This document shows, one piece after another, positions 1 through 27,894 of a stretch of 36,742 bases of DNA. The position numbers were made by a program, and so were the translations under genes. Positions within the stretch are counted from its first letter, which is position 1, and each line of letters starts with the position of its first letter. This stretch comes from Fimbriiglobus sp. (lineage in GTDB: Bacteria; Planctomycetota; Planctomycetia; Gemmatales; Gemmataceae), in NCBI GenBank assembly GCA_025351325.1, contig JANXWE010000310.1, positions 1-36,742 on the forward strand, read 5' to 3'. Below the pieces are notes generated by a model. It ran no database searches. It had not been told where the DNA came from and was given only the letters and a program-made list of their open reading frames with translations.

Positions 1-316
1 GTATTCGGCTGATCTCTTCCGCGTGGAGGGCCGCCAAGCACGCTTCGACCAATTGGTGCCCCAGACCACGCCGTCGATGGGCTGCCAACACGCCCACATG
101 ATGGAGATAACCGCGTCGGCCGTCATGCCCGCAAATGGCGACACCGACGACCTCGGCTCCGATGCACACAAGCTGGCTGCAGCCCGCGTTGCGTGCCAGG
201 AACCGCTCCAGCCCCGCTTCCGACTCCACGCCGCGCGACTGCAGCGGACTGGTCACCTGCCAGAGCCGCAACGCCGCCGGGATGTCGGCAAGCTCGACTG
301 GACGCACCGTCGTCAT
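1..316 (-). CDS. GNAT-family N-acetyltransferase, partial (C-terminus off the left edge)
   Basis: Reading the minus strand from an ATG at 316 gives an open frame of 105 residues that runs off the window. It starts MTTVRPVELADIPAALRLW, the usual beta1-alpha1 opening of GNAT acetyltransferases, and near residues 72-90 it has HHVGVLAAHRRRGLGHQLV. That holds the acetyl-CoA binding motif A (R-x-x-G-x-G at about residues 81-86). Such enzymes transfer an acetyl group from acetyl-CoA to an amine; the substrate cannot be told. The first 38 codons and some upstream sequence recur at 1646-1815. The fold assignment is firm, the role is not. Confidence 0.8.
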   Translation of the reverse strand, partial: MTTVRPVELADIPAALRLWQVTSPLQSRGVESEAGLERFLARNAGCSQLVCIGAEVVGVAICGHDGRRGYLHHVGVLAAHRRRGLGHQLVEACLAALHAEEISRI

Positions 317-367
317 GGGGGGAGTTTCCCGGGCTTGAACCGTGTTTGCGTAAGTAGGTAGTGTATT
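195..367. repeat. Direct repeat, copy A (5' end of the GNAT gene plus upstream region)
   Basis: Positions 201-316 match 1652-1767 with a single difference (a G/A change at 272, Ala to Val in the protein). The upstream parts are more diverged, but a GCGTA-x-GT-x-GGTAGTGTATTT block recurs at 348-367 and 1796-1815. The copies are in the same orientation with an offset of about 1,450 bases and flank an A+T-richer segment with two genes. This copy is joined to the intact GNAT frame. Confidence 0.9.
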
Positions 368-498
368 TATTCTATGGAATTGTAGGAAAGGAAATGGAGG
401 AGATGGAGGATGTGAGGGATGAGAAATGTCAGGAAGGTATCGCCAGCTACGGTAACAAAGGCGGTGAAGCAGTCTCTTGTCTCACCGCAAGATTTTGG

Positions 499-846
499 CT
501 ACTTTTTCTCAGAATCAGCTTCGTTGCGTTTTCGCAACGCTTTGTACTCGTTTATGAGCTTATTAAGCTCCAGTTTTGCCATTTTCTTGTCGCATAGATC
601 TTCTGTTGCAATTACTTTTTGCAACTGATTCGCAATTTGCTTTGCAAGTTCGTTCTCAGGCACACTTTTAGCAAGAATGCGATCACTTCTATTCATAGCA
701 GCCTGAATTTGCAATGCAAGATTGTTGAGGCGGCGTTTCAACTGCTCCATCTGTCGTTCGAGTTGCTGAATTTGCTGCTCTTGGAGTGACGGAATCGGAG
801 GCTGAACAGCACAGATTAAACAAATTGCGACAACACACGTCGGCAT
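499..846 (-). CDS. Small exported or membrane-anchored coiled-coil protein, unrecognised
   Basis: I do not recognise this 115-residue protein. The ATG at 846 is chosen because a GGGAGG Shine-Dalgarno sequence sits seven bases upstream; an in-frame TTG at 861 would overlap that site. The N-terminus MPTCVVAICLICAVQPPIP is a short hydrophobic run that could be a signal peptide or anchor. From about residue 20 to the end it is Gln/Leu/Lys/Glu-rich with heptad-like spacing (QEQQIQQLERQMEQLKRRL), a predicted coiled coil. Codon use is A+T-richer than in the rest of the window. It lies about 50 bases downstream of the coiled-coil gene at 897-1448 on the same strand, so the two are probably cotranscribed, and both sit inside the segment flanked by the GNAT duplication. 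Confidence 0.6.
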   Translation of the reverse strand: MPTCVVAICLICAVQPPIPSLQEQQIQQLERQMEQLKRRLNNLALQIQAAMNRSDRILAKSVPENELAKQIANQLQKVIATEDLCDKKMAKLELNKLINEYKALRKRNEADSEKK

Positions 847-896
847 GGCGTAACCTCCCAAAGTGTCATATGATTGCTAGGCTGTACCAAAAAAGT

Positions 897-1448
897 TTAT
901 CCCGCGATTGCACTTGGGAAAGGGACGTTCGCACTGGTTAGAGAATCGATACCCACTGCTTGCGCTTCGAGTTTTTTACGAATTTCTTCTAGTAAACCGT
1001 CACGCTCTTTTATCTTGTCAGCAAGCTCTTTCTGATGAACAGCATTAGTCGCAGTCAATTCTCCCACTAGCTTGTCGAGATCATCCATAGTTTTCCTAGT
1101 TTCGTCAACTCCCTTCTGTACCTCTTCAATAGTCGTTTTATCACCACCAGACTTTTTCAGAGCAAGGAGATAAGTCACTTGAACCTTCAACGATTTCTCA
1201 AGGTCTATCCTAGACTTATCTAAGTCTCCAATTTGTTTAGTAATCTTCAAAATGTCTGCATTCAATTTGTCAATCACTTTGTTTGCGGCTACCACCTTGT
1301 CAAGCAAATCGATCAGCTTCTGATCGGCCTCAGTAGCTGTGCCACTGACTTGGTACGTAACGTTTCCCGAAACGTTCATCACCGACACGGAAGGAAGTAC
1401 ACGGTTACCAAGTTCGCAGAGTTCGAGAATCGATCGTGAATTGAACAT
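897..1448 (-). CDS. Coiled-coil protein, unrecognised
   Basis: This is an unrecognised 183-residue protein. The ATG at 1448 has AAGGA six to seven bases upstream; the frame extends to a TTG at 1484, but that part runs through tandem 19-base repeats and is probably leader. Residues 1-50 are non-helical looking (SVSVMNVSGNVTYQVSG), then about residues 52-170 form a long amphipathic helix pattern (LIDLLDKVVAANKVIDKLN; DKIKERDGLLEEIRKKLE). There is no signal peptide, transmembrane segment or catalytic motif. It is upstream of the second coiled-coil gene at 499-846, suggesting a two-gene unit. Low G+C content and its position between direct repeats suggest acquisition or rearrangement. Confidence 0.6.
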   Translation of the reverse strand: MFNSRSILELCELGNRVLPSVSVMNVSGNVTYQVSGTATEADQKLIDLLDKVVAANKVIDKLNADILKITKQIGDLDKSRIDLEKSLKVQVTYLLALKKSGGDKTTIEEVQKGVDETRKTMDDLDKLVGELTATNAVHQKELADKIKERDGLLEEIRKKLEAQAVGIDSLTSANVPFPSAIAG

Positions 1449-1456
1449 GTGTTGTC

Positions 1457-1513
1457 CTTGAACAAGAAGGATTTTCTTGAACAAGAAGGATTTTCTTGAA
1501 GAAGAAGGATTTA
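1457..1513. repeat. 19-base tandem repeat, three copies
   Basis: Three contiguous 19-base units (1457-1475, 1476-1494, 1495-1513) are seen. The first two are identical and the third differs at two positions. The unit read on the plus strand is CTTGAACAAGAAGGATTTT. On the minus strand the repeat lies immediately upstream of the ribosome-binding site of the gene starting at 1448, so copy number could affect its leader. Confidence 0.9.
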
Positions 1514-1548
1514 ACTATTGATCACTGTGCTCGGCTGTGCCCAGCTTG

Positions 1549-1767
1549 TCAACTGGAAAAGGCTAAATATTTAGAAAAGTCCTCATTATTCCCAGCAAAT
1601 TGTGATTTTTTTTCCCTAGGAGAAGTTCGGAAGAAATCTTCCCGAGCCAAAAACCGCTCCAGCCCCGCTTCCGACTCCACGCCGCGCGACTGCAGCGGAC
1701 TGGTCACCTGCCAGAGCCGCAACACCGCCGGGATGTCGGCAAGCTCGACTGGACGCACCGTCGTCAT
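1549..1767 (-). pseudogene. Truncated GNAT acetyltransferase 5' fragment
   Basis: The frame from ATG 1767 gives MTTVRPVELADIPAVLRLW and matches the first 42 residues of the GNAT gene at 1-316 with one substitution. It then continues into unrelated residues (EDFFRTSPREKK) and stops at 1549. The acetyl-CoA binding region is missing, so this cannot be a working acetyltransferase. It is a duplicated gene start, fused at about 1650 to the A+T-rich segment. Confidence 0.85.
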
Positions 1768-1815
1768 GGGGGGTTACCGGAGCAGGACTGTAATTGCGTA
1801 GGTGGGTAGTGTATT
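1646..1815. repeat. Direct repeat, copy B (truncated GNAT 5' end plus upstream region)
   Basis: This is the partner of 195-367 in the same orientation. Homology begins abruptly near 1646-1654, where the sequence changes from A+T-rich to G+C-rich, and fades after 1815. Because the intact gene belongs to copy A, this copy lies where the original upstream region of the GNAT gene would be. Confidence 0.9.
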
Positions 1816-1888
1816 TTTTCCGCACTCAACGTGTGCATCGATTTGTAGGAGAGAGTCGAAAGGTGTGTCGGGAGTGCGGTTCAGTGAC

Positions 1889-2441: not shown

Positions 2442-3896
2442 ATGTCGAGCGAATTGAGCACCGCCCTCGTGGACGCGCCGGACACCGAATCGGCCGAGGC
2501 CCCCGCCAAGCTGGCCCAGCAAGTCGTCATCACCGACGCCGGCCCCTGCAAAAAGCACGTCAAAGTGACGGTCGAGCGGGCCGCGATCAACACGCGGATG
2601 GACGAAAAGTTCTCGGACATGATGGTCAAGAACCCGGTGCAAGTGCCCGGCTTCCGCACCGGTAAAGCTCCGCGTAAGATCGTCGTGAAGAAATTTTTCA
2701 AAGAGATCGCCGCCGAGGTCAAGAACGAAATCTTGATGAAGAGCCTCGAGCAACTCGCCGAGGAAGAGACACTTTCGCCGCTTAGCCCGCCGGAACTCGA
2801 CCCGTCGAAAGTGATCATCCCGGAAGCGGCCGACGAGCCGATGGTGTACGAGTTCAACATCGAAGTCCGGCCCGAGTTCGACCTGCCAAACTACAAAGGT
2901 CTGAAGATCCGCCGGCCGGTTCACACGTTCACACCGGACGACCTGAAACGGGAAACGAAGCGGATTCTGGAGCCGTACGGAACGCTCGTGCCGAAAGAAG
3001 GCACCAATGTGACCGTGGCCATGGATGACTTGGTGACGACGACGCTGGTCATCAAAGACGGCGACAAAGAGATGAACAAAGTTGACGAAGTTCGCTTGAA
3101 GGTCGAAAAGCGGCTCGCACTCGAAGATGGCGTGGCCGAAGATTTCGGCAAAAACCTCGTCGGGGCCAAGGTCGGCGACACCCGCACTGTAAACATCACC
3201 CTGTCGCAAGGGGTTTCCCAGGCCATGCGTGGCAAAGTGGTCGTCGCCCACTTCACGATCCACGACATCAAAGTGATGCGGTTGCCGGAACTCACGGCTG
3301 ACCTGCTGAGCCAGTTCAACGTCCGCAACGCCGATCAGTTCGACGAAGTCGTGAACACGCGGTTGGAACGGTTCCTGGAATACAGCCAACGGCAAACGGC
3401 CCGCACGCAAGTGCTGCAAACGCTCGCCGGCAACACCAAGTGGGAACTGCCGCAAGACTTGCTGCAACGCCAAGCCCGCAAGACACTCTCCCGCCGCGTG
3501 ATGGAGATGCGCGGCGCCGGGATGACCGACGAACAAATCACGAGCCGCGAACGAGCACTGACCCAAGACGCCATCCGCAGCACCGCCGATGCGTTGAAGG
3601 AGCACTTCGTCCTCCAGAAGATCGCCGACCTCGAGAAGCTCGAAATCGAAGATGCGGACATCGAAGCCGAAATCGATGCGATCGCCGACCGCACCGGCGA
3701 AAGCCCCCGTAAAGTCCGCGGCCGCATGGAGCGCGAAGACCTCATCGAGAGCCTCGCCACCGAGTTGCTGGAACGCAAAGCACTCGACTTGCTGTTGGAA
3801 ACCGCAGTGTACGAAGACTATGAATTCAATCCGATGAACCAAGACGACGACGCGACCGCGACGACGGATGCCACCGCGACCGACGGCGACGTTTGA
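2442..3896 (+). CDS. tig: Trigger factor (ribosome-associated chaperone, peptidyl-prolyl isomerase)
   Basis: This is a 484-residue protein. The ATG at 2442 is preceded by AGGAG eight bases upstream; an in-frame TTG at 2421 lacks such a site. The N-terminal ribosome-binding domain carries the signature GFRTGKAP at residues 70-77, about 27 residues later than in E. coli because of an N-terminal extension. An FKBP-like middle region and the helical C-terminal chaperone domain follow. The tail after about residue 465 is low-complexity Asp/Thr/Ala (DDDATATTDATATDGDV). Trigger factor binds nascent chains at the ribosome exit tunnel. It is followed by two clpP genes, the common tig-clpP order, but no clpX is next to them. 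A large palindrome lies between tig and the first clpP. Confidence 0.95.
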   Translation: MSSELSTALVDAPDTESAEAPAKLAQQVVITDAGPCKKHVKVTVERAAINTRMDEKFSDMMVKNPVQVPGFRTGKAPRKIVVKKFFKEIAAEVKNEILMKSLEQLAEEETLSPLSPPELDPSKVIIPEAADEPMVYEFNIEVRPEFDLPNYKGLKIRRPVHTFTPDDLKRETKRILEPYGTLVPKEGTNVTVAMDDLVTTTLVIKDGDKEMNKVDEVRLKVEKRLALEDGVAEDFGKNLVGAKVGDTRTVNITLSQGVSQAMRGKVVVAHFTIHDIKVMRLPELTADLLSQFNVRNADQFDEVVNTRLERFLEYSQRQTARTQVLQTLAGNTKWELPQDLLQRQARKTLSRRVMEMRGAGMTDEQITSRERALTQDAIRSTADALKEHFVLQKIADLEKLEIEDADIEAEIDAIADRTGESPRKVRGRMEREDLIESLATELLERKALDLLLETAVYEDYEFNPMNQDDDATATTDATATDGDV

Positions 3897-3927: not shown

Positions 3928-3997
3928 TGTGGCGACACGTTTCCAACGTGTCGGAAACGCCAAATTGTTTCCGACACGTTGGAAACGTGTCGCCACA
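3928..3997. repeat. 31-bp perfect inverted repeat between tig and clpP
   Basis: The arms 3928-3958 and 3967-3997 are perfectly complementary over 31 bp with an 8-base loop. Each arm also contains its own smaller palindrome (for example CGACACGTT-TCC-AACGTGTCG in the left arm), so the element can fold as one long hairpin or as two short ones. It lies 31 bases after the tig stop and 24 bases before the clpP start. In RNA it would be a very stable structure that could end or slow transcription, or protect an mRNA end, between the two genes. Confidence 0.95.
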
Positions 3998-6338: not shown

Positions 6339-9300
6339 GAAGCAGTTCCAGTTTCGGCGGAATCGGAATCGCCGCGATCAAGCGTTCGATCCGTTCTCGG
6401 ATTCCACCGTCGGTCTCGGCGGTGCGGGTCGATTCCAAATCGTCGAGGAAGAGTGGGATTTCCGGGCCGAGTGGCTCGATCAACGACAGCGCCAGTTCAC
6501 GCAGGCGCGGGTTCTTGTCGGTCAGTGCTTCGCGGATCACCACAGCCGCCTCTTCGTGATCGGCATCTCCTGAAAGTACCGCACTGGCGGCCGTGAGACG
6601 CACCCGCAAATTTGTATCTTTGAGCAAGTTCACCATCACCCGTTCCGGGACATCCGAACCGGCCGCACGGAGCGCGATGGCCGATGCGAGCCTCAAGCCG
6701 TCGTCGCTGGCCGGGGAGGTGTTCTCGATCAGGAATGGAATTGCCGCCGAGGGGACGGGATCGAGTCGGCCGAGGACGGAGGCGATGGTGGTGCGGACGC
6801 GGATGTCGGGATCGCGCAACGCTTCGATTACGACATCGATTCCAGTTTCGGGAACCCGGCCGAGTTTCTGCAACCCGGCGGAGGCCACCTTCCTCACGTC
6901 CGCTTCGGCGTCGTGGAGTCCGACCAAAAACGCCCCGAGGGCTTCCTCCGGTTCCAAGATCGCCAAGGCACGCATCGCGGCTTGTCGGAGTTCCACATCG
7001 CCAGTCGAAGCGACCAGTGCCAAGTCGGCACCGGCAACGGTCGCGGCTTCTCCCATCCGGCTGAGCGTCAGGGCGGCGACCGATTGAATCCAGGTATCGT
7101 TCGGATCGCGCAGTCGAACCAGCACCGCTTCGACGGCCTCGACCGGGTGGCTCTGGAATTTGTGAAGAGCTTGCAGTGCGGACGCGGCCACGTCCGAATT
7201 GCCATCGGCCACCAAGTCGACGATGGCCCCGACCGATTCGGGCCACTCCGCAGCCCATTCGGCGATCCCTTCGGCTGCCAAGGAACGCACTTCGGGAGCG
7301 GGGTCGGCGAGCGCGGCGATCAAGACGGTTTTCGTCGTTGAACCGAGCGGAGCCAGCCGGCCGACGGCTTGGACAGCTTTGGCCCGCACGGTGGTATCCG
7401 GATCGGCACAGGCCAGTTCCAGTGGGGTGCGCGAACTTTCCGACCGGAGTTTCCCCAACGACTCGGCCGCGTTGGCACGTACGTGTGGGTTCGCATGTTG
7501 CAGGGATCGCAGCAACGCCGGGCTAGCATTTTCGGCGGCTTCGCCCATTTCCCCGAGCGCTTCCGCCGCGAGGGCACGCACCCAATTGTCTTCGTCGCGC
7601 AGCAACCGCATCAGGGCGGGCACGGCCGCAGGTGCCGCCGAAGCGCCGATGCGGCCGAGCGCTTCGGCGGCCTTGGCCCGGACACGGTCGTTCGTGTCGG
7701 TCAAGGCGGCGGCGAGTGCGGGCGCCGCCGTTTCCGCGGCCATGCCGATGCGCCCCAACGACTCGGCTGTTTGCGCGCGGACGACGTTGTCGTCACTCGA
7801 CAGCCCATTGAGCAGCTGCCGGGTCGCTTCCTCGTTTTGCACTCCGATGCGGGCAATCGCATCTGCGGCGGCGGTGCGAACGTCTTCGTTGGTGTCTTGG
7901 AGCAAGCCGATTAGCCCGGAAACGGCATCCGCGGCCGCCGCCCGATACTCACCGAGGGCCTTGGCTGCGGCGGTGCGAACCTCCGGCGTCGGATCGGCGA
8001 GGGCCAGCGTTAAGGCAGTAATCGCTTCTGTTCCCGCAGTGCGAATTTGTCCAAGCGCGGTCGCGGCCTCGACTCTCACATCGTCGGTGTCGGTGCGCAG
8101 CAACTCCACGAGCGACTCAGTTGCCGCCGCTGCCATCGTACCAATTTGCCCGGTAGCCGTGGCCGCACGCCCGCGCACGGCGGGGGATAGATCGCGCAAC
8201 GCCGTGCGGAGCAATTCGACGGCCAGCTCCACTTCCTTCCCGTAACCGGGCTTCCGTCGGTGGCCGAGCGGGTGGCGAATTCGCCGGGCCGCACGCTTCC
8301 ACCACCGGACGGGCTGAGTCGAGTTCGCCGATGCGTTCTGCGTCGCATGGGCTTCGCCGATTCGCCCCAGTGCCTCCACGACGGCGAGCCGAACGCTTTC
8401 CGAAGGATCGTCGGCCAATCGGGCTAAGTCGGGCACGGCATCGCGGACTTTCAGCAGCCCCAGGGCCACCGCCGTGACAACGCGGGTGGTTTCGTGGCGG
8501 TCATGCAGATGTCGCAAGAGGCCGGGGATGGCCGCCGGGCCGATGCCCGCCAACACCACCGGCAGCAACTCTCGTTGTTCGAGGGTCAACGTGGCCGTCG
8601 AGCGGAGGGCGATCAACACGGGGACGACGGCATCGTGCCCGAACTGCGGCAGAACCGAGCGCGCGCGTTCGCGGATCGGCACGTGGGGCGACCAAAAATC
8701 GGTGACGGTGTCGGCCAGCAACCGGCCTTGGCGTACCGATGCGAAAATTTGTTGGAGCAGCACGAGCATGAAGAACGAGCGGAATCCCGTCATGAGCAAC
8801 GAAGCGGGTTTGCCGACGGGGCGGATCAAACTCACGCTGAGGAACTCGTACGACTTCGCCAGATCGAACACGTCGACGATTTTGAGCAAATTGACGAACG
8901 TGTACGCCAAGAAATCGAGGTAGACGGGGTGGGCATCCGGGTCGGCGATCCGATACCAAGATTGCCCGCCCGATTCGTACAGCGCCAAGTTCAACAGCGC
9001 GAAGCTGAAGACAGTCACCGCTGCCGCCGAGGCGAGCATGAGGATCCCGAGATTCGGGCCGTAGCGGATCAAATCGACCGCGAGCTGTTGACCTTTTTCG
9101 GGGTTGTACAGTGCTTTGAACCCACGCCCGACCTCGTACCGTTCTACCGAAATGTACATGTACGCGAGGCACGTCACCGCACCGGCGGCGATCAAGAGTG
9201 TGGCCACCGGCACCACCAACCACGGCAGGCCCGCGCCGATGCACTCCACGCAACCGACGATGATGCCGGTACTCAGGACGATCAAACCGAGCCAACCCGT

Positions 9301-16059: not shown

Positions 16060-16815
16060 ATGTTGGTGAAGAAGTGTTTGGCCGAAATCCTCGGTACATT
16101 TTGGCTCACATTCGGTGGGTGCGGCTCGGCGGTACTCGCCGCGATGTTCATCGCCAAAGAAGGTAGCACCCCGATCAACCTGGGGATCGCGCTCGTCGGT
16201 GTCTCGCTCGCCTTCGGCCTCACGGTGCTGACGATGGCCTATGCTATCGGTCACATCTCCGGGTGCCATTTGAACCCGGCCGTCTCCATTGGTCTGCTGT
16301 TCGGCGGCCGATTCAAAGCCCAGGATCTGCTCCCGTACATCGGTTCGCAGGTAATCGGGGCCATCGCTGGTGCCGGTGTCCTCTTTTTCATCTTCACCAA
16401 CGGTGAAGTGAACGGCGTGGCCCAGACGGTTGGCAGCGGTGCTGGTTCGTTCGCCACCAATGGCTACGGCGATCATTCGCCCGGCGTGGTGAAGTACAGC
16501 GTGGCTGCGTGTGCGCTCGGCGAGTTCGTCCTGACGTTCTTCTTTCTGTTGATCATTCTCGGTTCGACCGACCGCCGTGCCCCCGGCGGCTTCGCCCCGA
16601 TCCCCATCGGTTTGGGCCTGACGCTGATCCACCTGATCGGCATCCCGCTGACGAACACCTCGGTGAATCCGGCACGGAGCACCGGGCCAGCGCTCTTCGT
16701 GGGAGGCGTCGCACTCCAGCAGCTTTGGCTCTTCTGGGCCGCACCCATCGCCGGAGCTGCCGCCGCCGGCTTGCTGTATCGGTTTGCGTTTGAAGCCAAG
16801 CACGACGGGAAATAA
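16060..16815 (+). CDS. aqpZ: Aquaporin Z-like water channel
   Basis: This is a 251-residue membrane protein of the MIP family. The ATG at 16060 has GGAG seven bases upstream. Both half-helix motifs are present: [10 protein letters not shown] (NPA at 72-74) and TSVNPARS (NPA at 203-205), with Arg206 and His191 (LIHLIG) at the positions of the aquaporin selectivity filter. Six transmembrane helices are readable. The His plus Arg filter favours a water channel over a glycerol facilitator. It is 41 bases after the glycosyltransferase and may share its transcript. The gene is convergent with the ECF gene, with 10 bases between stops. Confidence 0.92.
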
Positions 16816-27080: not shown

Positions 27081-27103
27081 TGCGCGACCTCTTTGCCGCC
27101 CGG

Positions 27104-27176
27104 CTGAAGCTTGGTTAGGCGTCGTTGACCTGCCGCGGCAACCGTGACCGCCGCACGATGAGGGCATACAGCACGC
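27104..27176. repeat. Shared 3' block, copy 1 (gene end plus integron-like inverse core)
   Basis: Positions 27104-27135 match 27822-27853 at 29 of 32 positions, and weaker similarity extends to 27176 and 27894. On the minus strand the block covers the last codons of the small membrane gene (VRRSRLPRQVNDA), its stop codon inside GCCTAAC (27120-27114), and CAAGCTTCAG beyond the stop. GCCTAAC fits the RYYYAAC inverse core of integron attC sites. Confidence 0.8.
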
Positions 27177-27773: not shown

Positions 27774-27821
27774 CCCGAAACCCTCTGCGAACCAACAATG
27801 TCGTTCAGGGGCCGCCTTCGA

Positions 27822-27894
27822 CTGAAGCTGAGTTAGGCGTCGCTGACCTGCCGTCTCAGTCGCGACCGCCGCACAAGGATCGCATACAGCAACC
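27822..27894. repeat. Shared 3' block, copy 2
   Basis: This is the partner of 27104-27176 at an offset of 718 bases, same orientation. On the minus strand it again holds the end of a VRRSRLRRQVSDA-type frame, the stop inside GCCTAAC (27838-27832), and TCAGCTTCAG. Here the upstream body of the membrane gene is missing. Confidence 0.8.

Follow-up and report, generated by a model that had tools for sequence, protein, structure and literature searches.

Two A+T-rich orphan coiled-coil genes between mosaic copies of an acetyltransferase gene start in a Fimbriiglobus genome

The start of a GNAT acetyltransferase gene of Fimbriiglobus sp. is duplicated at the beginning of the window, i.e., the whole stretch of 36,742 nucleotides analyzed here. 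The two copies form a mosaic repeat, the gene belonging to one of them is intact, and the DNA enclosed by them is an A+T-rich cargo of two orphan genes, designated CC1 and CC2. New compared with the preliminary description is the mosaic nature of the repeat, since diverged homology continues past both edges of the near-identical block, including four codons (FLAR) on its coding side; the upstream half of this pattern had already been seen. We give about even chances to a one-off horizontal insertion, in which foreign DNA would have been captured by homology-assisted recombination and the 5' end of the GNAT gene rebuilt in the process.

Architecture of the duplicated gene start

The host genome comprises 5.09 Mb in 382 contigs (96% complete), and the window represents contig C305. 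Its first position is a contig end, placing the locus with the duplicated gene start at the very beginning of this contig. The features of the locus are as follows.

1–316, minus strand: GNAT acetyltransferase, 5' part of the intact gene (Pfam Acetyltransf_1, 9.1e-10; includes a 141-base overlap with contig C316)
191–202, minus strand: codons 39–42 (FLAR) of the inner copy, diverged edge (TTC CTG GCA CGC)
201–322, minus strand: near-identical block, inner copy, codons 1–38 and 6 bases before the ATG (1 difference to 1652–1773)
323–390, minus strand: diverged upstream arm of the inner copy, probable promoter (aligned to 1774–1820)
502–846, minus strand: CC2, 115-aa coiled-coil protein with hydrophobic N-terminus, orphan (ORF, GGGAGG before the ATG)
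900–1448, minus strand: CC1, 183-aa protein, orphan (ORF, AAGGA before the ATG)
1457–1512, no strand assigned: 19-base unit in about three repeats, leader directly upstream of CC1 (Tandem Repeats Finder, 97% matches)
1642–1653, minus strand: codons 39–42 (FLAR) of the outer copy, where GNAT homology stops (TTT TTG GCT CGG)
1652–1773, minus strand: near-identical block, outer copy, GNAT start truncated (frame continues to 1549 without GNAT similarity)
1774–1853, minus strand: diverged upstream arm of the outer copy (alignment with the inner arm)

The first 105 residues of the GNAT protein matched Acetyltransf_1 (PF00583) with 39.3 bits against a curated cut-off of 20.7. Exactly 141 bases are common to window positions 1–141 and positions 16189–16329 of contig C316, inside the GNAT gene; an assembly graph with k=141 probably branches here, which would make the two contigs neighbors. 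The gene runs off the window and reaches its stop codon on C316, where it is followed by truB. This confirmed that an intact gene begins with the inner copy, as initially proposed, the outer one being truncated with GNAT similarity ending after codon 42. Direct repeats that restore the target frame are present at both ends of the segment (201–322 and 1652–1773), and the GNAT frame is intact through C316. The putative branch point between C305 and C316 lies 60 bases away from the repeat and may reflect variation among strains at the GNAT locus.

Codons 1–38 were originally reported to be present twice (201–316 and 1652–1767), with one difference and 1,451 bases apart. This holds, with the near-identical block being slightly longer at 122 bases, of which 121 agree; the sole mismatch (273 G, 1724 A) is an Ala/Val replacement at codon 15. 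Beyond the block, all four FLAR codons differ synonymously (TTC/TTT, CTG/TTG, GCA/GCT, CGC/CGG), leaving the encoded protein the same in both copies. For a random sequence, the chance of keeping FLAR is ~4e-4, an estimate resting on four codons. These codons are A+T-richer in the outer copy, as is the cargo. On the other side of the block, the upstream arms share 35 of 47 aligned bases (~74%), followed by a gap and more similarity, amounting to ~65–80 bases of homology. Although short, this similarity reached a Smith-Waterman score of 47, compared with a maximum of 36 in 2,000 shuffles. Differences are distributed unevenly, with 1/122 in the core versus 12/47 in the upstream arm (Fisher p 7e-7). 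A 25-base motif in the inner arm (348–372) recurs within the genome only at 1796–1820. This promoter-like motif had been considered as a dispersed repeat, a reading dismissed by the genome search, which returned just the two repeat copies.

Judged from the sequence pattern, a near-identical core flanked by homologous but diverged arms is indicative of gene conversion in the course of homologous recombination. The earlier suggestion of either recent duplication or gene conversion can be narrowed accordingly to its second half: a plain recent duplication cannot yield an identical core together with diverged arms, whereas a recent exchange within an already diverged pair can. Gene conversion is the better option because the FLAR edge is diverged as well, in addition to the upstream half. 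As the four codons differ only synonymously, there is also a hint that the outer edge derives from a gene that used to be functional, except if it was truncated only at a late stage.

The enclosed segment and its coding potential

The segment between the copies has a G+C content of 43%, compared with 58% in a genome sample of 0.67 Mb, in which some contigs were masked. It lies below every unmasked 1.2-kb piece of this sample, and the sole window below 46% covers the insert. The two A+T-rich genes described initially exist as open reading frames, each with a Shine-Dalgarno-like sequence ahead of its ATG. Their G+C content by codon position (0.56/0.32/0.43 and 0.57/0.30/0.43 versus 0.75/0.50/0.75 in GNAT) is coding-like; being alike in both genes and different from GNAT, it suggests that CC1 and CC2 probably share one foreign origin.

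In single-sequence AlphaFold2 models, CC1 begins with a helix and a beta hairpin, after which two long helices run antiparallel to each other (pLDDT 85, pTM 0.68), and CC2 has three helices following the hydrophobic N-terminus (pLDDT 76). A fold search with CC1 returned generic coiled coils and helical hairpins only, none at E <= 0.001. CC1 and CC2 are probably small helical and possibly exported accessory proteins, this role being a guess. The N-terminus of CC1, LELCELGNRVLPS, resembles a planctomycete LExLExR-type start by eye and failed the strict pattern. Matches of both proteins to Pfam, NCBIfam, and PHROG families were weak, below cut-offs where these exist, and mutually inconsistent, and are for these reasons regarded as coiled-coil noise.

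Relatives of CC1 were found neither in 95 family or 398 class genomes nor in public genome contigs or viral contigs. For CC2, no convincing relatives were contained in the family genomes and the 398 class genomes, nor in viral or public genome contigs; its weak matches (E ~1e-4, 25–50% identity, mostly inside long ORFs) look like generic coiled-coil similarity. Since the CC proteins lack relatives, the cargo does not appear to be native to the genus. At the DNA level, the segment matched none of the plasmids or phages searched, and the genome itself holds no second copy of it. Within the segment, just the two coiled-coil ORFs were recognizable, with no recombinase, integrase, transposase, or terminal inverted repeats, and the 0.67 Mb sample of the same genome revealed no second case of A+T-rich DNA enclosed by duplicated gene starts.

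Several further repeats were recorded in the window and in the genus. An Rfam match to the Acido-Lenti-1 RNA (2012–2057; 39.6 bits, above the gathering score) lies within palindromic intergenic repeats at 1889–2065. A perfect 31-base inverted repeat is located between tig and clpP (3928–3997), with related copies in other intergenic sites of the genus (8480–8554 of L070 and ~9835–10031 of L046), making it a dispersed palindromic element. At 27095–27173 and 27811–27891, ~80 bases are repeated 716 bases apart with 80% identity, possibly a partial gene duplication. In locus L079, the start of a small antitoxin-like gene is repeated 559 bases apart (3168–3267 and 3727–3825; 86%) with a toxin-like gene in between; considered as an insert of the same kind, it looks like tandem toxin-antitoxin paralogues instead.

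The locus in related genomes

Extension of the comparison to three genomes of the same genus (G001, G002, and G003) showed that a divergent diacylglycerol-kinase-like gene faces the GNAT start in all of them, overlapping it or lying ~30 bases apart, and that truB follows GNAT. This kinase gene has no match in the present genome at E <= 0.001. Here, truB-GNAT is joined to tRNA-Gly/tig, which stand elsewhere in the congeners. Absence of the kinase gene together with this displaced tRNA-Gly/tig position indicates that the region upstream of GNAT was rebuilt in the present lineage, so that at the level of the genus an ancestral status can be assigned to neither of the two upstream arms. The idea that the outer copy retains the ancestral upstream region was therefore not borne out, as the congeners carry the kinase gene at this place.

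No donor sequence or strain with an empty site was found. In the closest genomes, which lack the CC genes, GNAT is either a remnant or only 46–50% identical, and the three congeners provided no empty site at the DNA level because the synteny of tig and GNAT-truB differs there. In the nearest relative (G002, contig C49, locus L070), a GNAT remnant at ~7608–7758 joins codons 1–23 to the last ~27 codons and is located between truB and the kinase gene.

Possible origins of the arrangement

The scenario to which we give even chances would start from a donor piece carrying CC1 and CC2 together with diverged counterparts of the GNAT start and its upstream region. This piece would have recombined with the resident GNAT start, either by a single crossover of a circularized fragment or by homology-facilitated illegitimate recombination. 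The central 122 bases would have become identical through strand exchange or later conversion, whereas the edges would have stayed donor- or recipient-like. The truB-proximal GNAT gene would be complete, its promoter probably being supplied by the donor-side upstream region, and the other GNAT start would be left truncated at codon 42. In case of a circular-fragment crossover, the recipient arm would lie outside (from 1774 on), with the donor edge at 1642–1653 and the donor arm at 323–390. A donor edge at 1642–1653 would be consistent with the higher A+T content of the FLAR codons in the outer copy. The order of events, the existence of a donor, the crossover, and the expression of CC1 and CC2 are what we infer from the arrangement. 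From the preliminary description, the proposal that foreign-looking DNA was inserted and left its target with a rebuilt start is supported.

The mosaic could also stem from an old duplication and later gene conversion inside the same genome. Such a course of events, in which the GNAT start and its promoter were duplicated in tandem at this locus long ago, CC1/CC2 were later inserted between the copies, and the 122-base core was recently converted, appears possible, if rather unlikely. Diverged arms around an identical core fit an old pair homogenized by conversion, and the locus has been rearranged in this lineage, as seen from the missing kinase gene and the junction of truB-GNAT with tRNA-Gly/tig. 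However, three separate events would be required, and a truncated free copy is not expected to keep four codons synonymous. We consider it improbable that the arrangement is an assembly artefact or strain mixture, with sequences from two strains or loci linked close to the end of the metagenome contig. The exact 141-base overlap of the contig end with C316 is what a branching k=141 node would produce and suggests population variation. In contrast, the longest exact repeat between the copies (72 bases) is shorter than 141, and the repeat should for this reason not confuse a k=141 graph; furthermore, the DNA between the copies is unique and continuous, and each of the two copies has its own unique flanks.

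A non-autonomous mobile unit, bringing along a copy of the target gene start and thereby keeping the target working after insertion, is very unlikely. Its geometry would be suitable, spanning the upstream region to the truncated start, its circle would contain a junction of gene start and upstream region resembling the target, and recoding of the edge codons has left the protein unchanged. Nevertheless, the mobile unit suggested earlier finds no support in the searches for a second genomic copy, protein homologues, or plasmid and phage matches described above, nor is there a second example in the genome sample. The lack of integrase, transposase, and terminal inverted repeats in the segment likewise speaks against it, although a helper recombinase might be encoded elsewhere. 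Still more speculative, with only a very slight chance of being correct, is a small recombinase-free unit spreading among strains via a partly recoded host gene start, with host homologous recombination inserting it and the gene being kept intact.

Integrase-borne islands and prophages insert into a gene, restore the target from their own copy, and leave a truncated copy at the far end. The present locus resembles these gene-restoring integrative elements in its rebuilt target and the truncated copy at the far end; unlike them, it has no integrase, and the unit comprises just ~1.45 kb. With respect to the one-off horizontal insertion, bacteria are documented to integrate DNA that has homology at one of its ends, and circularized DNA by single crossing-over (PMC3240628). 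As in such homology-facilitated illegitimate or Campbell-type integration, foreign genes are found here beside homology, with no dedicated recombinase and with the target partly duplicated or displaced (PMC3240628); unlike in the documented cases, we infer the event from one sequence only. Mosaic tracts are common in transformation, and single events give short mosaic tracts (PMC13344027). In the type VI effector modules of Vibrio cholerae, displacement leaves gene remnants, and conserved parts of genes have been proposed to act as anchors (PMC5361080). The likeness lies in a conserved stretch serving as anchor, foreign cargo entering, and pieces of the old gene remaining, whereas many strains, repeated events, and a known cargo function in V. 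cholerae stand against one case with orphan cargo here (PMC5361080).

If the unit were mobile, it would represent a new way to insert without damage. As a one-off horizontal insertion, the locus would be a clean fossil of orphan genes entering a bacterial genome without a mobile element, in which the 122-base conversion tract and its diverged arms mark the exchange.
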